The translations under genes and the position numbers were made by a program. The notes under the pieces were generated by a model that made no database searches, was not told the origin of the DNA, and saw only the letters and a list, made by a program, of their open reading frames with translations. DNA of 64,000 nucleotides from Caenorhabditis remanei (lineage: Eukaryota > Nematoda > Chromadorea > Rhabditida > Rhabditidae), in NCBI RefSeq assembly GCF_010183535.1, contig NC_071332.1, positions 15,748,001 to 15,812,000 on the forward strand, read 5' to 3'. Within the stretch, counting starts at the first letter, position 1, and the number at the start of each line of letters is the position of its first letter. This document shows positions 2,541-16,800 of the stretch, piece after piece.

Positions 2541-3091
2541 AGAAACTGACAAAAAGAAGAAGAAATAAGGAATGGAACGAGTGGGGAAACATGTGGGGGC
2601 TGGGCGTAGTCATGGTGAGCATTGAAAATAATTGATGACTGGAAAAGAATTCTTGATGAGACCAAAAAAAAACTAAGAATGTTCTAGAAGGGTACAGTAT
2701 ACTACAGTAGGCTTGTCACGTTCTCAAATAATAATATTTGAGGCATGACTCCAGGCACTACCTGATAAGCTGATAAGCACGCCTCTATCACAAACTAGAG
2801 GTGTGATGGGAGACCTGATTTATTCTAGAATCGCTTAAAATTAACGGATTTTGATTTGGAAACCTGGAAAACCATCAGGAAGTCATCTAGAATTAGTCTG
2901 GGTAAATTCAGCAATTTCCAGACGTCCTGAAACAAGTTTTCAGGCGATTTTAGTAAAGTTGTACATTGTGATAGGCTTGTGCTGTTATCAGTCATCACAA
3001 ATAGGGTCGTCATAGGTCGTACAGTATAAAAGAGGAAACCGGAGGGGGAAGAGAGACAAGTTCTCAAAAAGCTACTATTCATCTACTGAAA
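2541..3091 (+). promoter_or_regulatory. Upstream promoter of the metallothionein (GATA sites plus TATA box)
   Basis: Two GATA motifs sit side by side (TGATAAGC at 2763-2770 and 2771-2778). A reverse ACTGATAA reads as TTATCAGT at 2985-2992. TATAAAA is at 3025-3031, about 65 bases before the first ATG at 3092. Known background: C. elegans mtl-1 and mtl-2 are intestinal genes driven by the GATA factor ELT-2 with metal induction, and these sites fit that. The regulatory reading is inference. This stretch may also hold 5' exons of the minus-strand gene ending at 2540. Confidence 0.6.
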
Positions 3092-5536
3092 ATGGCCTGC
3101 AAGTGTGGTAAGTAATAGCTGGGGATAGGGGTTATGGGAGTTACAGAGTAGAGAAAGGCTCCGGGAAAAAAAGAAGTTATAGGACGTGACCAATATCATT
3201 AGAAAGCTGAAAAGACGCTGATTCTAAATATATATTCAGTTTTCCTCCTCGAAGCCTGGTTTTCGAGAAAAACGAGGTCGAAGTTTGAAGACCTTACAAG
3301 TCAATATAAGAGTTAGGGGAGTTACATATGTATATGTGTCGGTGTCACTGAGAGCCTGATATTTTTTCGAATTTATGCGTTTTGTAAAGATCTACTTTAA
3401 AAATTAAAAAAATGCAGTGTTTGTTCCCAGAATTCCATTTAGTTGTTGTCTTCATTAACTCGTGAGAAAAAGTGAGGACATTAGATCAGGGTCGGTCGAA
3501 AACAGCGTATAGATCAGGGTCGCTAGAAAAGAGGAGACATAGAACGGGGTGGCTAGAGAGAAGTTATATAGAACGGGGTCGGTGAGGAAGAGTATATAAT
3601 GTCTAGCTGAGGTGAGTGGAGACAAACTGAGATATCTCATATTTTGGTTTTGTCTAGCAAAATAAGCAACATGGCCTGCAAGTGTGGTAAGTTATCAACT
3701 TGCTTATTCCTTTCTAAGACTCCCTTCTCATTCAACTTTTTCTAGACTGCAACAACAAGGAGTGTCCATGCAATAACGGTCAGCCATGCGACTGCTCTGA
3801 TTCCAAGTGCTGTGACAAGTATTGTTGCTCTACTGCTGCTGAGAAGAAGTGCTGCAAATCAGGATGTGCTGGAGGATGCAAGTGCGCAAACTGTGATTGT
3901 GGCAAGAAGGAGAAGAAGGGATGCAAGTGTGGTAAGTAGAGCAATTCTAGCTTTACTGGTTGAACGAATTATAGTGGTTTTAGAAAAAAGCGCAAAAAAC
4001 TTTTGGAACTTGATTTTTCACTCAGATACAACCAATTCAAAAAAGTTATAGCCAAAAAACCAAAACTTAATATAGTTTTGAGCGGTACTGTAGGTAATAA
4101 GGCGCCTTGATGAGACATCGTAAACATATTCGAATCTTATAAGACTAACGTTTTCAGCTGGTTTTTAGTTATGCAAGTTTTACTACTAACTTCAAATTTA
4201 TAACCGATAGTTTTAGACTGCAACAACAAGGACTGTGCATGCAATAACGGTCAGCCATGCGACTGCTCTGATTCCAAGTGCTGTGACAAGTATTGTTGCT
4301 CTACTGCTGCTGAGAAGAAGTGCTGCAAATCAGGATGTGCTGGAGGATGCAAGTGTGCAAACTGTGATTGTGGCAAGAAGGAGAAGAAGGGATGCAAGTG
4401 TGGTAAGTAGGGCAATTCTAGCTTTGTGAAAGTATGTGATTTCACGAATTTTAGGGATTTTAGAAAAAATGTGTAAAACTTGTGAAACATGATTTTTCAC
4501 ACAGATTTTTGGTGATTTTTACCGATTCACTACAATTACTGTTTTCTCAAAGTTTCAGAGCGATCCGACCAATTAGAAAAAAGTTAAAACCAAAGAACCA
4601 AAACTTACCATAACTGACAAAAATATAGCCTAATATTTATAGAATCTTTCTTCAGTTGAAAAATGTTCATACCTTTAAAGACAGCCGAGATAGGAAGTTC
4701 CAAACTCTTGGTAGTAGAACCGCCTCTATTACAGATTTTACGGTAATACACTTTTTAGGGAAACTGTAATAAGGCGCCTTGATCAAAACAACGTAAACAT
4801 ATTTGGATCTTATAAAATATAAGTCATCGGCTGATTTTGAGTTACGCAAGTTTTACTAACTTCACATTTATAACCGATAGTTCCAGACTGCAACAACAAA
4901 GACTGCCCATGCAATAACGGTCAGTCATGCGATTGCTCTGACTCCAAGTGTTGTGACAAGTATTGTTGCTCTACTGCAGCTGAGAAGAAGTGCTGCAAAT
5001 CAGGATGCGAGGGCGGATGCAAATGTACTAACTGTCAATGCCCAGAGAAGAAGGGATGCAGATGCGGTGAGTAACAGAACATCTTAAATCTGTTGCTCAT
5101 CTTCACTTGATCATTTTCCAGATTGTAACAACAAAGAGTGCCGATGCAACAAGAGCAAGACCTGTGATTGTACAGCTACTAAGTGCTGTGACATGTACTG
5201 TTGCTCCACTGCAGCTGAGAAGAAATGCTGCAAGCCTGGGTGTGCCGGAGGATGCAAGTGTGCCAATTGTCACTGTGAGAAGAAGAAGGGATGCAGATGC
5301 AGTGAGTTCATCTTTTTCTTCCTATCTTTCAAATCTACAAAATTCCAGACTGCAACAACAAAAACTGTCCATGCAACAATGGTCAGCCATGTGACTGCAC
5401 TGCTACCAAGTGCTGTGACATGTACTGTTGTGCTACCGCAAGTGAGAAAAAGTGCTGTAAGCCAGGATGTGCTGGAGGGTGCAAATGCCCAGACTGCAAC
5501 TGTTCGGAGGGATCCGGATGCAAGTGTTGTCAATAA
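3092..5536 (+). CDS. mtl: Giant metallothionein with five tandem MTL-like modules
   Basis: A metal-binding cytosolic protein predicted to bind Zn, Cd or Cu through cysteine thiolates. Exon 1 exists in two versions, 3092-3107 and 3671-3686, each encoding MACKC plus one base. The remaining exons are 3746-3931, 4217-4402, 4887-5066, 5122-5301 and 5349-5536 (stop). With either first exon the CDS is 936 nt, 311 residues. Each large exon is one module of about 60 residues with 18 cysteines (19 in the last), about 93 in total. Module signatures are [37 protein letters not shown] and a KKGCKC end. Single-module C. elegans MTL-1 and MTL-2 are about 75 and 63 residues, so this is roughly five times larger. 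All introns are phase 1, so skipping any module exon keeps the frame. Modules 1 and 2 are almost identical; 4 and 5 share [17 protein letters not shown] lies near 5620. The open frame and clean splice sites argue against a pseudogene. Confidence 0.93.
3475..3670 (+). promoter_or_regulatory. Second, internal metallothionein promoter with short tandem repeats
   Basis: Within the intron after the first 5' exon there are about four degenerate repeats of about 30 bp (3478-3590), each with a GATCAGGGTCG or GAACGGGGTCG core. They are followed by TATATAAT at 3593-3600 and a second ATG exon at 3671 that encodes the same MACKC. The spacing from TATA box to ATG resembles that of the upstream promoter. 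Whether the repeats bind a metal-responsive factor is unknown. Confidence 0.5.
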
Positions 5537-6054
5537 GCAGAGAAAAGGACATTCAATGAACATAATTACCCCCACAACACCTACTAATTGATATATAATG
5601 TTCTTTTTGTGAAAACTGAAAAATAAATGTTCATTTTGTTAAAGCTCGTCTTCAACAATTTCAGGCGAAAGTTCGGTTTAAGGGATTCTACCATAAATCA
5701 AAGGCGGTAATCAAATCTCTAGTTTGGTGCCTAGGAGTGAGTGCCTCAAACAAACATTGTATACTTTGGTCAGTTGATAGAAATAGTGTTATGAAAATGG
5801 GAAGAAAATATCAGGGTCGGGGAGGAAAGGAAAGATTATAACAGGTTTTTGGAGGAAAAAAGACTTTGCTTTTGCAGTGCAAATTCTTACTGTAGCTTAA
5901 AGGCGCATAGCAAAAAAGTTTTCATACAGCATACTCAATAAGCCGTTTTCTACAGAAGTTTTGATATTTTAAAACCATAAAATTTCGCAAATTCCCCTTG
6001 TAGATGTTCTAGTGATGCTGTGTAATGGTGATTAAAGTCCCAAAAAGAATAATT
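5537..6054. other. Spacer after the metallothionein
   Basis: It holds the metallothionein 3' UTR with AATAAA near 5620, then AT-rich sequence. No gene or repeat is recognised. Confidence 0.6.
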
Positions 6055-6126
6055 TGCCCCCACGCAGGATTGAACTACGGACCTCTGGTTTACAAGACCA
6101 GCGCTCTGCCACTGAGCTATAAGGGC
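6055..6126 (-). tRNA. tRNA-Thr(UGU): tRNA-Thr (anticodon UGU)
   Basis: The minus strand folds as a canonical 72-nt tRNA. The acceptor GCCCTTA pairs with TGGGGGC (two G-U pairs) and the discriminator is A. The D arm AGCTCAGTGGCAGAGC contains an A box. The anticodon stem CTGGT/ACCAG encloses loop CTTGTAA with anticodon TGT. The T arm CGTAG-TTCAATC-CTGCG contains a B box (GTTCAATCC). There is no intron. It should read ACA and ACG-type threonine codons. No mismatch suggests a pseudogene. Confidence 0.93.
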
Positions 6127-6658: not shown

Positions 6659-9612
6659 ATGTCGAAACCTAAAAGAAATAAAATAGCACTGCTGAATAGC
6701 GAGAAAGGATGTCGGATATGTTATCGACCGGCGTTCGGAAATCATTATGGGGTGAGTCTCGTCTGTGTGTCGGTCAGTCCGGATGTCCACTTGGTGTTGT
6801 TTCAGGGGTTTCTAGCATACTTGCCATGGCCCGGCTTTTTCAATTTTTCATCGAAAATTGAACATTTTTCCTGATTTTTTAAAAGAATTTCTTCAAATTC
6901 CAAATGATAGTCGAAAATTTGAATTTTGAATTTTGGCGCCAATTACCCGGGCCTTGACAAGTATGGTTTCTAGGTTTTTACGCCTGCTAGTCCATTTGTC
7001 TGTCTGTGTGTTCCCTCTGTCCGGATGTCCACTAGCACAGGTTCTTGTTTTTTGTATTAGCACGGTACGCTTCTTACAACCGCGCTCTACCGAAACCGAA
7101 GAAAATTGTGTTCGAAATTGGGAGACTCAGAGAAAAAGAGACATTTTTCAAGGGGATTTCGGTGGAGCGCATTTGTAAAAACTGTGTCGAGCTAATAGTT
7201 ACGTGAAGTTTATGCGTTGTTACACTGTGCGGTACCATGTCTGTCTGTCGGTGTGTCCTACGGTCCGGATGTCCTCCAGAAATCTGTCTGTGTGTCCAGA
7301 TTTCCTGATGTCCATAGTTTTGTCCGGATGTCTCTGAAAACAAGTTCAAAAACGACATTTTAGATAAAAGTTTTGATTTTCCACTAATTTTTTTGAAAAA
7401 CGAGAGTTATCTGTCTGTCCGTTTGTCTGTCTATCCGGAAATCCCCCCTCAATCTGCAGGTGTTCTCGTGCTACGCGTGTAAAATGTTCTTCCGTCGAAC
7501 AATCGTTGAAAACCTCACGTATCACTGCAAAAAACTCAAAAAATGTTTCGAAAACTTCCAAATTCTTCCGAATTGTCAATTCTGTCGATATCAAAAATGT
7601 CTCGAGTTGGGAATGGAATTGACTCCGCCCCCTACTACAGTAGTCCACTCCGACACTCGACTGAGCGATTTATTGGAGAAATTGACAGAAATGGATAGAA
7701 GAAGATATCTGAAATTGATCAGCAGTTATTCGGTGGATGATCCAAGTCTGGACGAAGTTTTGAAGGATAGAAAAGTGATGAATATGGTGGAAAGGGTACG
7801 GTACTAGGGGTACTGTAGACTAATAAAATGGGCGGTGATTTTTCAGGTTCCCGGTGCTCATGTGACTGCTCACGAGTGGGCATTTCTAGATGTTTATTCA
7901 AGGATTGTTCATTTTTGTAGTTTCGATTTTATTGATCAGTTGGGGATGGAGGATAAGGTAGGTTATGTGAAAAGATACGGTTGAGAGACGCAGAGAAACT
8001 AGAGTGTCTGACTGTCTGCGCGCGCACTCTCGCCTACTAAACTTCAAATCGTTATAGCTCCACAGCGATTAATGCCATCAAAAAGTTGCCAACTAACAAA
8101 GTGTGTAAAATTTTCTGATCTACAGTTTTGTAGTTGACCACTTTTTGATAGCATTTTACGGTGCAGAGATACACGACGTTGAAGTAAAGTACCTCACTGA
8201 GGACGAGGGATTTCGCGAAAGCACCCTTGTATTTCGAAACCACGAAGAGCTATCGAAAAGTGATCAACTACAAAATGTAGAGTTTGATCTCAAGACTAAA
8301 CCTCTATAACGCAGAGAGAGAGAGAGAGACGCAGAGAAGCTAGAGCGTCTGACTGTCTGCGCGCGCTCTCTCATGCTCGCTATACTTCAAATCGGTGTAT
8401 CTCCACAGCGATTAGTGCTATCCAAAAGCTGATAACTAAAAAAATATGTAAAATTTTCTGTTCTACATTTTTGTAATTCTCAACTTTTTTGTGCAAGTGG
8501 TCCCTAAAGAGATATACCCCTTTTTTCAGAAAACCCTCTTCTCCTACAACTCTCTCCGTACCGCATTATTGGGCGGCGCAATGCGAACCTTCAGAGAAAA
8601 AAGAGATTGTCTTTTGACCCCAACTGGAGAAGATGTCTATCCTAAAGATGTTTATCTACTTTTCAAAAAATCTCCGGGAATTTTGAATCGAATTTGTTGT
8701 GAAATAGTGGGAAGATTGATCGAGTTGAAGGTGACAAATGAAGAGTACCTGTTGCTGATTTTGATATTCTTTTGTAATCCCGGTGAGCCTTTACAACTTT
8801 TTGAAGGATAGTTTGATGGGTAGATCAAACAATACCAGTACTACATTTTTGTAGTTGATCACTTTTTGATAGCTCTTTAGGTTTTCGAGATACAAGGATA
8901 CGCTACGTTACTTCAAAGTCGTGTATCTCTGCACCGTGAAATGCTATCAAAAAGTGGTCAACTACAAAAATGTAGAGCTAGACTTTTTACATATTTTGTT
9001 AATTATCAACTTTTTGTTTAGTGAGCGAGAGAACGAGAGAGCGCGCGCAGAAGACAATAAGACGCTCTAACTTCTCTGCGTCTCTCATAGAGATACTAGG
9101 GAGCTTCCAAGCAAGCAACTCCTCGGGCTAAAAGAGGCCCTTTACTTCATAGGCGTGTATCTCTGCACCGTGAAATGCTATCAAAATCTGGTCAACTACA
9201 AAAATGTAGATCTAGACTTGTTTGATCTACTCACAAATTTTGAGCCCGTCCTGACAATATCCGGCTCCACCGTACCCCTTCAAAGTACCCCCTTATTTCA
9301 GCGATCCCCCACTACCTCTCCCCGGCCGCCCGTTCCTCCCTATCCATCCATCAAAAGTTGTATTCCTCGGCACTTTTCCAATACTGTCAACTCATTTATC
9401 AAAGCCACGCCCCCTCTCGATACAATGATCTACTATCGATATGTCATGTGCTGAACAGGACGAATAATGATCTACAGTATGTCAGTATGATGTTTCAATG
9501 CTATGTTCCCAGTTTTAAATTCAAGAAATTGGTTAGTGACACTTTTGTGGATTCGTCGATTGGAATGGATGAAGAGATGGGAGGAAGAGTTAAGATTGAG
9601 ATTATGGATTGA
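6659..9612 (+). CDS. Nuclear hormone receptor A (divergent nematode NHR)
   Basis: Five exons: 6659-6751, 7460-7795, 7847-7957, 8530-8782 and 9302-9612; 367 residues. A ligand-regulated nuclear transcription factor. The DNA-binding domain spans residues 18-83. Zinc finger 1 runs from CRIC through the P-box-like SCYACKMFFRR, finger 2 runs to CQFCRYQKCLELGM. Exon 1 ends at HYG, the usual split inside finger 1. The ligand-binding domain follows, with typical nematode landmarks: EWAFLDVYSRIVHF, GAMRTFREKRDCLLTP, RLIELKVTNEEYLLL and a C-terminal YSSALFQYCQL...NDLLSICH helix region. AATAAA lies near 9757. It is paralogous to the receptor at 39545-42903, with the same LIELKVTNEEY block. Introns 1, 3 and 4 are stuffed with repeats. 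The ligand and target genes are unknown. Confidence 0.9.
6816..6965. repeat. Short copy of the GC-ended CATACTTG element
   Basis: It begins CATACTTGCCATGGCCCGG and ends CCGGGCCTTGACAAGTATG, a terminal inverted repeat around an AT-rich core. It is the same family as the element at 11554-12224. It lies in intron 1 of receptor A. Confidence 0.65.
7056..7196. mobile_element. MITE, TTAGCACGG family, copy 1
   Basis: About 140 bp with long terminal inverted repeats. The left end is TTAGCACGGTACGCTTCTTAC with CGCGCTCTACCGAAAC inside. The right end is TTTCGGTGGAGCGCA, then TGTCGAGCTAATA. It has TA-type ends and no coding capacity. It lies in intron 1 of receptor A. Other copies are at 21661-21804, 24287-24402, 32362-32504 and a partial one at 58430-58497. 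Confidence 0.75.
7980..8480. repeat. GCGTCTCT repeat family in intron 3 of receptor A
   Basis: Two tandem pieces carry GAGACGCAGAGAA.CTAGAG, GTCTGACTGTCTGCGCGCG and TCGTTATA/GTATCTCCACAGCGATTA followed by a CAACTTTTTGATAGC-like motif. The same blocks, in either orientation, recur at 8830-9240, 42290-42560, 52790-52920, 53100-53250, 54150-54570 and 55250-55790. Confidence 0.65.
8820..9250. repeat. GCGTCTCT repeat family in intron 4 of receptor A
   Basis: It contains GTGTATCTCTGCACCGTGAAATGCTATCAAAA twice in similar form (about 8921 and 9155), with CAACTACAAAAATGTAGA and GAGAGCGCGCGCAGA blocks between. Confidence 0.6.
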
Positions 9613-10801: not shown

Positions 10802-13800
10802 TTATCCAGATTGATCATTTCTGGTGGATCCGACGGAAACCACGTTGTTTGGTGTCACTTGACAATACATTTCGTATCGGAGGTCAGCGGGAACGTCGTA
10901 TTGAAGCGAAGAGAACATTTGATGTGATGGAGCCTTCAGGTCGATGAGCACTTTTCGCATCGCAAGTGTTTTCAGGGATGGTGCTGAAAATATTGGGTAT
11001 AAATTTGGGAAAAAAAGTTAAATTTATTATTTTCGGTCAATTTTCAGTTTAAAATAGGCTCATTTTTCGGTTTTTGGTTTGAAAATGGACCTTTTCAAAG
11101 GCGCTGAAAATTGGGAATAAATTTGGGAAATTTTTTAAATTTTTTAAAAATTTATCATTTTCTGTCAAAAACTGAATTTTTTGTCAAAATTCAGTAGTTT
11201 TCACTTTTTTGGTCATTTTTCAGTTTTTTTGAAGAAAAAATTCAAATTTTTTGCATCTGTTCATCCGGATGTCTACCTGTCTGTAGGTGAATCTTCTGAC
11301 GCGTTTTTTGATTCGGAAAATTTCGAAAAACTAGAAAAATTGCTCAAAAATCAAATTCAAATAAAATTTATAACAGATTTTTGGAGCTAAAAATGTATTT
11401 TTGTCGAAAAATTAGGATATAATGCTCTAAGGTCCAAAAAAAATTACTGAAAATTCTGAAATTCAGTTTTCAGTTTCCAATAAAAAATATTTGCCTTTTT
11501 GAAACAAAAATCGTCTTTTTTCGAGCTAAATGACAGTGAATGACTGAAATTTGCATACTTGTCAAGGGCCGGGCCGGGCTTTTTTTCCAAAACTTCAGGC
11601 CCGGCCCGGCCCGGCCCCTCAGGCCCCTCTTTTGGAGGAAATTTTTTTTTTCAAATTTTTTTCAAAATTTTTTTCGAGTTTGAGCAAAATTGGACTAAGT
11701 TCAACTTTGATTTTTTTCATAGAATAATGCATGTGTGTCTGAGTTCATATTCATATCGAAAGAAAATTTTCAAAGATTTGTTTTCAAGTTTTATAATATA
11801 ATTACTTTCGCCATTTTTTAATTGTTTAATTTAATTGCCGGCAATTGCCCAAACTGTTTCGCCGCTCGATCTCAGCGGGGTTTCGACCGAATTTTCATAT
11901 TTTTTCGTTATGAAAATGAACTCACGAAGACACACAGATTATTCTGGGAAAAAATCAGATTTTACCTATTTACACCTTCAAGTTTTCCATTGCCGGAGGC
12001 GTCTCGCTGAAAAATTCAGCCCATCTTTCGAAAAATATACTAAATCATGATGAAAAAACTATAAAAAACGAGTAAATTGGGAAATTTTTCCCCATGAAAA
12101 GTTGAATTTGTGGAAAAAATTTGAAAATTTTTCTCAAAAATCCCATATCCCTGAAAAGAGGGGCCTGAGGGGCCGGGCTTTTTAGGGGGGGGGGGGGGGG
12201 CGGCCCCTCATTTGACAAGTATGGAAATTTGGGTAATTCTCAAAAAATTCGAATTACAGCTTTAAATTTCATTTTTCTAGAATTTTTTCCTTTTTCTGAT
12301 AATTTCTCTCACAAGGGAATTGACTTTCCGTACCCGTTCAGAATTTTCTATAAACTTGCGCACTGATAGTTTCGAGTCTGCTCTGAACAATGATGATAGT
12401 CAAAAAGTGCAAAACTCCCGAAAAAGTGGATTTTTTTGCTCCGAAAGCTTGCTCATTTTTCATCATAGAAAACGCGAGTGCCACTTTGGGAGGACTATCG
12501 GGTTTGTGAAGGCAACTAGATGCCCTCTCGGTCAGCGGTTGAATGGCCACGTGGCAGAGTGGGGGACTGGTAGGAGGAAGGTCTGGGGATCGACTCCTTC
12601 CCCTTTTTCTTTTTTTTTTTTGCTTTTTGAAAACCGACTGTGGAAAGTTAATTACAGTTTGTTCGACCTATTCTATGAAGTTTTTATTCCGTTTTCAACT
12701 ATTTTCTACATTATCTGAACATTTGGAACAAAAAATTGTTTTGAGAAAATTTTGTGTTCTCATGATCGTTCGTTCATCTCCTCATGGGATACCCGCTCAT
12801 TTTTGAAAGCTTGTCAACCAAATTTTCTCATCTACTCTCGAACCAGATATTTATTTAGAATGAATAAGGCCCTACAGCAAGAATCCGGAATACCTACTTA
12901 AAAACCATCATTCATTAAAGAATTGGCAAAGAGGAGTGTCCACCATGAACGAATGATCATGAGAACACAAAATTTTCTCAAAACAATTTTTGTTCCAAAT
13001 GTTCAGATAATGTAGAAAATAGTTGAAAACGGAATAAAAACTTCATAGAATAGGTCGAACAAACTGTAATTAACTTTCCACAGTCGGTTTTCAAAAAGCA
13101 AAAAAAAAGAAAAAGGGGAAGGGGTCGATCCCCAGACCTTCCTCCTACCAGTCCCCCACTCTGCCACGTGGCCATTCAACCGCTGACCGAGAGGGCATCT
13201 AGTTGCCTTCACAAACCCGATAGTCCTCCCAAAGTGGCACTCGCGTTTTCTATGATGAAAAATGAGCAAACTTTCGGAGCAAAAAAATCCACTTTTTCGG
13301 GAGTTTTGCACTTTTTGACTATCATCATTGTTCAGAGCAGACTCGAAACTATCAGTGTGCAAGTTTATAGAAAATTCTGAACGGGTACGGAAAGTCAATT
13401 CCCTTGTCAGTCTAAAAATGGCTAAAATTTCTGAAAATCATCTCAATTCTGTATTTTACTTTTCTCTCAAACCAAAATGAAAAACTCACAAAAATCGAGA
13501 ACATGAAGATCGGAGAGATCGGCAAGGCCACTCGGCGAGATGACTCCATTATAGACAGTCGTTGAGAGTGGATGACAAGTCGATGGATTTGGCATCGTTC
13601 CACCGAACAGATAGACTCTTCCATTCGATACGACGGAGCAGTGACGTCGTCTCGCCGTGGGATACTTTCCACGTACATCGATAATACTCCACGAGACTGT
13701 CGACGGATCGAAACAGTACAATTCGTTGTAATGGACATTTCGAGTTCCCAAATATCCACCGAACATATACATCTTTCCACCGTATACCCATGTGGAATGA

Positions 13801-16800
13801 CTACGTCTTCCACCTGGTCGACACGTGGCATCTGCTGGAATTTCTTGTTTCGTCCAGACGCCTGTCGTCAGATTCAGTGCCATCAGCGTGTCATCGTAGA
13901 GGTCTTGTGTTGTGTGGAACTGAAAGAAAGAGAGAAAAATATAGACGGGGGTTAGGATATTGATTAGGAGAAGTGGGGAAGAAGGTGGGTTAGTCTATTA
14001 GCAGTCCACTTTTCTTACAACTGCGCTCCACCGCAAACAAGAGAGTATAGGGGAGAGACGCAGAGTTTTTTTTTCAGTTTTTGACATTTTCTCGCATTTT
14101 TTCACAGTATTTTTTTCAAAATTGTTATGAAAAAATGCGAGAATAGGTCAAAAACTGTGAAAATCTGTGTCTCACTCGTTTGCGGTGGGGCGCGGTTGTA
14201 ATAAAAATGGACCGCTAATATATCCATTTATAAATTAAAGAGTTGTTACAACATTTATCACACACATCACTCCTCACATCACTCCAATCAGGCAGATGTT
14301 AGAATGGTTATAAAAAGGGGTACATGCTATTGAAATGTTTGGAATTTCAGATTTGAATTCTAGCAGGTTTAGGGTTAGACTAAAAACATTTTTAAACCTT
14401 CGAATTGTCATTTTCTCAAGATTTTTACGTTTAAAGTCTCCTAATGCAACAAAAAACTATAGAAAACTATGCAACTTGAATCAAAAGTCAATTTTCATAC
14501 AAAAATTGACTTTTTTCGAGCTATATGACAGTTAATGACTGAAAATTTCTGTAATTCAGGATAAAAATTGCAACCGGGAAGTTTCAGAATCATAAAACTT
14601 AACGGTTTTGAAACGGATCAGGTTTCGAGATGCCTCATTTAGTCGTTTTGAGTCTGAGACGGTTTGAAACTCTGCCAGCTTATTCGGGTTTTCTTGGTTC
14701 CGAAATGCACATTTTGGACGTTTTGAAACCGAAACATTTGAAAAGGTCCGGTTTCAGAAAGTACTCGTTTAGGACGTTTTGAAACCAAAAGGTATTGAAA
14801 TTAAGACGGTTTGAAACCGAGGCGTTCCGAACCAACTTAGTTTCAAAATGAGGCGGTTCTGAAACTACAAAAAACGGTTTCAAAACGGGAAATTTCCAAT
14901 CCGACAGATTCTGAAACTGTGATATCTCAGTTTCAAAATGAACCGGTTTTGAGATGTCTCGGTTTCGAAACGTCCCAAACATTCTCCCTACAGTACCTCT
15001 TTTTTTCAAGCCAACAGTCTTCGTGCTGAAGCAAGCAACTCAATATATTTATAGAAAGTGTATGGCTTCTCTCTTTTCTCATTCATCCACCACCAAAAAC
15101 CATCAAAATTCATTCGAGCTGCAAACGCGCTCTACTGAAATCTTTCAATAGAGCGCGCTTGCTTGCTCACCACCAACACCTTTCCACTTGGGTTAAGCAA
15201 AGAAATAAACGAAAAATGGCCAATCTCACTGCACACATACCAAGTGCTCATCACCGACCTGACCATTATGGTCACTTCTGCCTCCGAAAATGTACATGAC
15301 GCCGTCGATGACCGATGCCGTGTGGAAGTCTCTCCACAACGGTGGCGTATTCTTTGTGTGCATTTCCCGCCACGTCGCTGTGCCGAAATCGAAGACGTAC
15401 GTCTCCTGACTGAATCGTTGTGAGTCTTCCTCGAATCCACCGAACACAAACATCTGATTATTCCAGATGACGGCGGTGTGACCGTCGCGAGATGGAGGGA
15501 TGAATCCGTCGATTTCCACTTTTCGCCACATGTTTTTTGCTGGAAAAAGGATAATTTTTTGTTAATTTGATCGGATATCACAGTTTCGATTGATCTTTAC
15601 TAGTTAATTGTTGTATTTTATTTTGAAAACAGGTAGTTTTGAGATAAAAATGAGAAAATTATAGTTTTTCGACTAATTCAGCAGCAAAATCGTGTTTCTA
15701 TTTTTCGAAAATTTCACAAAATATGATTTTGAAGATAAATGTTGAAAATTTACAGTACAGCTCATACAACTTGAAATACTGTTGCATACTTTTTTGTCAA
15801 AAAATTACAAAATACTGATTTTTTTTTACAGAAAAACGGTACATCTATCGCTGAAAATGAGCAAAACCATCATTTTTTGGCAAATTTAACGGGGTAATTG
15901 TATTTTTTCGAAAACTTTCTGAAAATTACAGCTATGAAGCCGAATTAAAAAATTTGTAAATATTGAATTCCTTAGAACGTTTTTATACAAAAAAGTCCCA
16001 AAAGTGCAAAAAATTCAGCTCAAAACGTTGCTGGTGGTGTTGAAAGACTGATTTTCCAGTTTCGACATTTTCTAGTTACCTGACACTCAAAACATTGATA
16101 AAATGAACAATTTTGACAGATTTTCATATAAATTTGAGATATTTCTCGAAATTTGTAGAAAAATTTGATTTTCAGCTCAATTTTCAGAAATTTTTATTTC
16201 AAAAAGCACTCAATTATTTTGTATTTGTATTTTGTATTTGTATTTATTCTATCGAAAATCATCAGTAAATGGGGCGAGAGGCTGAGAATGAGTCCCTCAC
16301 GAGACCATTCAAAATTTGTTGTTTCTAAAAATAGTGAATACTGAAAATATTCTTGATTCCGTAACTTTTCGAGGTCTTCTGACACCTGAAGTCGTTTTTA
16401 AAAAATAAAAATCAAGTTTTTCAGTTTTTTCTCAGTTTCTCATAGTTTCCAATAAACTTTTTTGTCAAAAATGACAATATTCCAATTTTGTTATTTATAT
16501 GCCCAAAACTATGTAAAAAGAGGTTGTGGACCACAAAACTTTGTCAAAAATGCAATTTTGTAGTAATCAAGACAGATTTTTATAGTAATTTCCGTAATTT
16601 CCTATTTCTTCTCGAAAATTTGAGTTTTCCACCCATTCTTGTCAACATTTTTGCTTTTTTTTGAGAAATTTTTTTTAAAAATAAATTTTCAGCATTCAAA
16701 TCCCACTGAAATCCCTTACCTGGATCATACTCATGCATCAAATTACACGCTCCATAATCGTCGTTTCTTCCTCCCCAAACGTACGCCTTTCCATTATACT

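Follow-up and report, generated by a model that had tools for sequence, protein, structure and literature searches.

The window analysed here, a stretch of 64,000 nucleotides on chromosome V of Caenorhabditis remanei PX506 (C5:15,748,001-15,812,000), carries on its forward strand a metallothionein gene with the following exons and end signal:

3092-3107, + strand: start exon e1a, 16 nt (ATGGCCTGCAAGTGTG), encoding MACKC plus one base, donor GTAAGT
3671-3686, + strand: second start exon e1b, identical to e1a, donor GTAAGT, with a 59-nt intron to M1
3746-3931, + strand: module exon M1, 186 nt, phase 1-1
4217-4402, + strand: module exon M2, 186 nt, phase 1-1
4887-5066, + strand: module exon M3, 180 nt, phase 1-1
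5122-5301, + strand: module exon M4, 180 nt, phase 1-1
5349-5536, + strand: terminal module exon M5, 188 nt including the stop codon, C-terminal end GCKCCQ
5622-5627, + strand: AATAAA, likely poly(A) signal, the only AATAAA within 3001-5800

When 3092-5536 is joined in silico, the exons form a single open frame of 311 amino acids plus stop, with 93 Cys (30%) in five modules. This confirms the original prediction of one multi-exon gene encoding about 311 residues and about 93 cysteines in five near-repeat modules, and the exon set and frame together support its reading as a Caenorhabditis MTL gene of five fused modules. The exon joins are predicted from the sequence: AG lies directly 5' of all five module exons (TAG at M1 and M2, CAG at M3-M5), and GT directly 3' of M1-M4; the TAG acceptors count against the prediction. 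The second start exon had been overlooked. Used in place of e1a, e1b gives an identical protein; C. elegans mtl-2 presumably has one start exon, whereas the five-module gene of C. remanei has two. No similarity between the flanks of e1a and e1b extends beyond approximately 28 nt around e1b, which argues for maintenance of e1b by selection rather than recent copying. As an internal exon, e1b fails with both acceptors tried, one of which leads to an immediate stop and the other to a frameshift.

The five modules, counted from CKC, contain 18 Cys each in 56 aligned residues; all 18 Cys columns and 18 of the 38 other columns are invariant, and the interface tyrosine of MTL-2 (Tyr32) is present in every module. 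The codon following CKC is split across exons, as also happens in the C. remanei orthologue of mtl-1, and the first two Cys of M2-M5 are encoded at the 3' end of the preceding exon. The end of M5, GCKCCQ, adds three Cys (5 x 18 + 3 = 93). When the first module was searched against the whole genome (130,466,896 bases in 186 contigs), six matches were found: the five exons of this gene (E values between 4e-33 and 1e-18) and the orthologue of mtl-1 (6e-10). This five-module pattern of matches is beyond chance. A Pfam search matched no family, which counts against the reading. Of two protein searches of 5.8 billion sequences, one returned 367 candidates, none with E <= 0.001, and the other none at all, and thus no homologue; C. 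elegans MTL was likewise absent from the results, so that the collection seems to be without nematodes and says nothing about rarity.

The modules are separated by lysine-rich linkers (GKKEKKG, PEKKG and EKKKG), where the chain, once made, might be cleaved into single modules. The metallothionein isolated from the earthworm Eisenia is shorter than its cDNA predicts (PMC4101491), but nematode metallothioneins yielded no evidence of such cutting, and cleavage of this chain seems exceedingly unlikely.

The phases of the exons make skipping in frame automatic, and the reading frame is preserved in all 16 exon combinations that end in M5. Translation past the donor of M1, M2 or M3 meets a stop after two codons (CKCGK, CKCGK and CRCGE, respectively), so that single-module products are possible, and together these properties would allow products of different lengths. 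The gene may therefore be imagined as a splicing-adjustable metallothionein, in which skipping, the choice between e1a and e1b, and intron stops would yield one to five modules, the pentamer being one of several main products. The two identical start exons and the resemblance of the read-through ends to the end of M5 (CKCCQ) fit this idea; however, skipping in frame would accompany any phase 1-1 exons, a stop soon past a GTAAGT or GTGAGT donor is not rare in that frame, the sole AATAAA is 3' of M5, and purifying selection on the modules (see below) fits their regular use. This alternative appears unlikely. The main mRNA would instead consist of one 16-nt start exon spliced to the complete set of five module exons, giving the 311-residue chain of five 18-Cys modules.

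The 3' ends of the exons bear on the origin of the gene. Exon 1 ends in TGCAAGTGTG followed by the donor GTAAGT, and the 16-mer comprising this tail and donor, TGCAAGTGTGGTAAGT, occurs four times in the 130 Mb genome, always in this gene (e1a, e1b, the end of M1 and the end of M2), while its reversed control does not occur at all. M3 and M4 end in TGCAGATGC followed by G or A, with the donor GTGAGT, and the end of M5, TGCAAGTGTTGTCAATAA, looks like an exon-1 tail that has lost its donor. Internal exons of phase 1-1 whose ends copy the CKC tail of exon 1 point to head-to-tail fusion of single-module mtl-2 units. In such a fusion, the coding end of one mtl-2 copy would have become continuous, without a change of frame, with the exon-1 tail and donor of the next copy, and the resulting phase-1-1 cassette would then have been multiplied, with each internal module exon lending the following module its first two Cys. 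Because a tail is present in all five modules, the fusion would predate their divergence, unless conversion has spread the tail. The two ATG exons (at 3092 and 3671), each with a TATA-like motif on its 5' side, could also belong to two or more tandem single-module genes from which no pentamer is produced; but no ATG exon of their own was found between modules for M2, M3, M4 or M5, the exon-1 tail is fused onto the ends of M1 and M2, and there is only one AATAAA, all of which leaves separate genes with hardly any likelihood.

The age of the array was estimated from the 52-codon core of the modules, which offers only about 27 synonymous sites, so that single dS values are noisy. M1 and M2 are close (dS 0.04; dN/dS 0.42, from three changes). 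The dS values of M1 and M2 are 0.63-0.72 against M3 and 1.0-1.15 against M5, and in the remaining five of the ten module pairs dS is beyond correction; dN ranges from 0.02 to 0.14 across module pairs. In the four of the nine diverged pairs where it could be computed, dN/dS is 0.07-0.12, and six of the seven pairs tested (of ten) have a synonymous excess (p from 1e-6 to 9e-17), the exception being M1-M2 (p 0.44). With synonymous divergence this high or saturated, and with this synonymous excess, purifying selection acts on the diverged modules and the array as a whole is old, with one recent duplication or conversion (M1-M2). The suggestion that the array could be a recent adaptation is thus contradicted by the nine of ten pairs with dS of at least 0.63 or beyond correction, only M1-M2 being close.

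Over 215 nt, M1 and M2 share 98% identity, which drops about 23 nt into the intron. They have one synonymous difference in about 27 sites versus 46 differences in 297 intron positions (p 0.06), which is suggestive only of a gene-conversion tract across the two modules. Such identity might also arise if M1 or M2 were a duplicated haplotype of one exon, falsely placed by the assembly. However, the introns 3' of M1 and M2 (285 and 484 nt, respectively) differ by 199 nt in length and by about 15% in their aligned parts (three pieces at 74-85% identity), the sequences 5' of the two modules differ, and strain PX506 underwent 28-30 generations of inbreeding (PMC10461856). Given the strong divergence of M3-M5, one module at most could be false. 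An assembly artefact is accordingly very improbable.

From sequence comparison and promoter layout (see below), C. remanei mtl-2 is the most likely identity of the five-module gene. Its modules share 65-74% identity with C. elegans MTL-2 and 55-66% with MTL-1, MTL-2 being the closer in all five, and the first module matches MTL-2 (8ap5) with an E value of 2e-20 versus 6e-13 for MTL-1 (8aq9). The only other metallothionein found by the genome search is the single-module mtl-1 orthologue (C5:7,600,175-7,600,342, minus strand), with the protein MGCKCDC...THSHQGTAAAH. The sole match to the Vps39_1 family in the genome is located about 100 kb from the pentamer on the same chromosome; in C. elegans, vps-39 (T08G5.5) is a neighbour of mtl-2 (T08G5.10), and the two names belong to one cosmid series. 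MTL-1 is reported to be marked by an EE motif and a His-rich tail, whereas MTL-2 homologues have ST, or PT in C. elegans (PMC11134313). ST is found in four of the five modules and AT in M5, the latter counting against an MTL-2 identity, while EE is found in none; the 311 residues include a single His, in M4 at an MTL-1-like NCHC position, and no His-rich tail. In size, which is not a defining property, the protein departs from the usual MTL-2, with 311 residues in five modules rather than about 63 in one. C. elegans mtl-2 has srh-308 downstream (PMC12239621) and T08G5.1 upstream, whereas the immediate downstream neighbour of the five-module gene encodes a nuclear receptor, which counts against simple synteny. 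This neighbour (7397-9612, + strand) has a zf-C4 exon above the Pfam cut-off and a ligand-binding-domain exon just below it. The five-module gene is probably mtl-2 itself and not an additional gene.

Several putative promoter elements were identified (distances are from the ATG at 3092 unless stated otherwise):

2763-2768 and 2771-2776, + strand: two TGATAA (GATA-type) motifs, at -329 and -321
2792-2810, + strand: HZA-like block AAACTAGAGGTGTGATGGG, at -300, with a counterpart at -302 of the mtl-1 orthologue
2959-2976, + strand: block TTGTACATTGTGATAGGC, at -133, with a counterpart at -121 of the mtl-1 orthologue
2985-2991, - strand: CTGATAA (GATA-type), at -107, 40 bases 5' of the TATA box
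3025-3032, + strand: TATA box TATAAAAG, at -67
3593-3599, + strand: TATATAA upstream of e1b, at -78 from e1b

This layout resembles that of C. elegans mtl-2, which has the TATA box TATAAAAG 47 bp and CTGATAA 87 bp 5' of the ATG (PMC12239621), the spacing between the two being 40 bases in both species. The mtl-1 orthologue of C. remanei has TGATAA at -314 besides its two related blocks. HZA elements are located at -292 of mtl-2 and -313 of mtl-1 in C. elegans (PMC4333406), and are reported to be conserved in C. remanei, of which mtl-2 already appears in published promoter alignments (PMC4333406, PMC12239621). The block at -300 is presumed to be the HZA from its position rather than from a comparison with the published HZA letters. 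The genome contains two exact matches to the HZA-like pattern, as must follow from a pattern built from both metallothionein promoters, and 19 more with one mismatch, versus eight for the reversed control. The other block shared by the two promoters, TTGTACATTGTGAYAGRC, has two exact matches (by construction its two source sites, 2959-2976 of the window and C5:7,600,704-7,600,721) and five with one mismatch, while its reversed control has none. In the 563 bases 5' of e1b, TATATAA is the sole one of five motifs to be found, TGATAA, TTATCA, TATAAAA and AAACTAGA being absent.

Other features were observed near the two metallothionein genes and elsewhere in the window. The mtl-1 orthologue is preceded, at a distance of about 0.5 kb and on the same strand, by a small Cys-rich gene (C5:7,601,109-7,601,910, minus strand). 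It has two exons encoding 44 amino acids with 12 Cys (MPCPCACKNCSCGENCKC...), a phase-1 split after CxC, and a single copy in the genome, and it is possibly a third, metallothionein-like gene. The only tRNA gene found in the window is a tRNA-Thr with anticodon TGT (6055-6126, - strand). An exon of a Kelch-repeat protein, for which the best match is a KLHDC2-like domain, is present at 13467-13994 (- strand). Two near-identical frames on opposite strands (12281-12718, + strand, and 13003-13437, - strand) indicate an inverted repeat, which may belong to a mobile element.

The modules share with C. elegans MTL-2 (8ap5) their 18 Cys, the interface Tyr, the lack of a His-rich tail and, by inference, the place of the intron after CKC, but MTL-2 is one module of 63 residues whereas the C. 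remanei gene has five modules in one chain. MTL-1 (8aq9, and its C. remanei orthologue) has the same Cys pattern and a phase-1 intron past CKC, but is a single module with a His-bearing C-terminal tail and lower identity to the modules described here. The in-silico splice places tandem units in one open frame, as in multi-domain metallothioneins. CMT1 and CMT2 of Cryptococcus neoformans are long, repeated fungal copper metallothioneins with unrelated modules. OdiMT2 of Oikopleura dioica also has tandem units in one chain (399 residues, 123 Cys and six units), but belongs to a chordate, is composed of unrelated 12C domains and is apparently not built simply of one exon per unit (PMC8283569). 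The 9md-MT and 10md-MT of Alinda biplicata are likewise long, multi-domain, Cd-induced and involved in cadmium handling, but consist of mollusc beta-domains that bind 3 Cd each and are encoded by intronless genes (PMC7084494).

Although snails and tunicates have multi-module metallothioneins (PMC8283569, PMC7084494), those of nematodes are treated as single-module proteins in the literature examined, and no report of a multi-module nematode metallothionein was found in searches of open-access papers. According to a review, GenBank holds C. remanei metallothionein sequences (PMC4101491), so that the five-module gene is probably in databases already, and an alignment of metallothioneins of several Caenorhabditis species (Fig. 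S6 of PMC11134313) may include it. The five-module architecture of C. remanei mtl-2 may be unreported. New here are the phase-1-1 exons with the exon-1 tail, the two start exons, the finding that the array is not recent overall, and the in-frame combinations.

We infer the splicing, expression, metal load and regulation of the five-module gene as follows. It is probably a fused and multiplied mtl-2 orthologue, with a main mRNA of one start exon and five modules, that encodes a zinc- and cadmium-induced binder in the gut. Induction there by both metals would proceed through the HZA-like and GATA elements of the promoter. C. elegans MTL-2 binds six divalent ions with its 18 Cys (PMC11134313), and by analogy the five-module chain would bind about 30. 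The best reading of its function is that a multi-module MTL-2 would sequester cadmium and zinc as a high-capacity gut buffer. The proposal that capacity scales with module number is plausible: in the unrelated MT2 of Oikopleura, unit number differs among populations, ranging between three and seven, and is reported to be directly related to metal capacity (PMC8283569). A more speculative idea, which we consider rather doubtful, is that RNA processing sets the capacity of the buffer, with interchangeable start exons and cassettes giving one to five modules depending on the metal load, and with cassette number varying between Caenorhabditis species or strains.

The cadmium or zinc capacity of a single five-module protein could be about five times that of the usual one-unit form, and a five-module MTL-2 in a workable worm genus, beside the one-module MTL-2 of C. 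elegans, would offer a direct test of the effect of modules on capacity, on cadmium/zinc preference and on fitness. The exon tails are a readable record of the origin of such a fusion, and a buffer set by RNA processing, if true, would provide a worm model for the evolution of copy number within a single gene.
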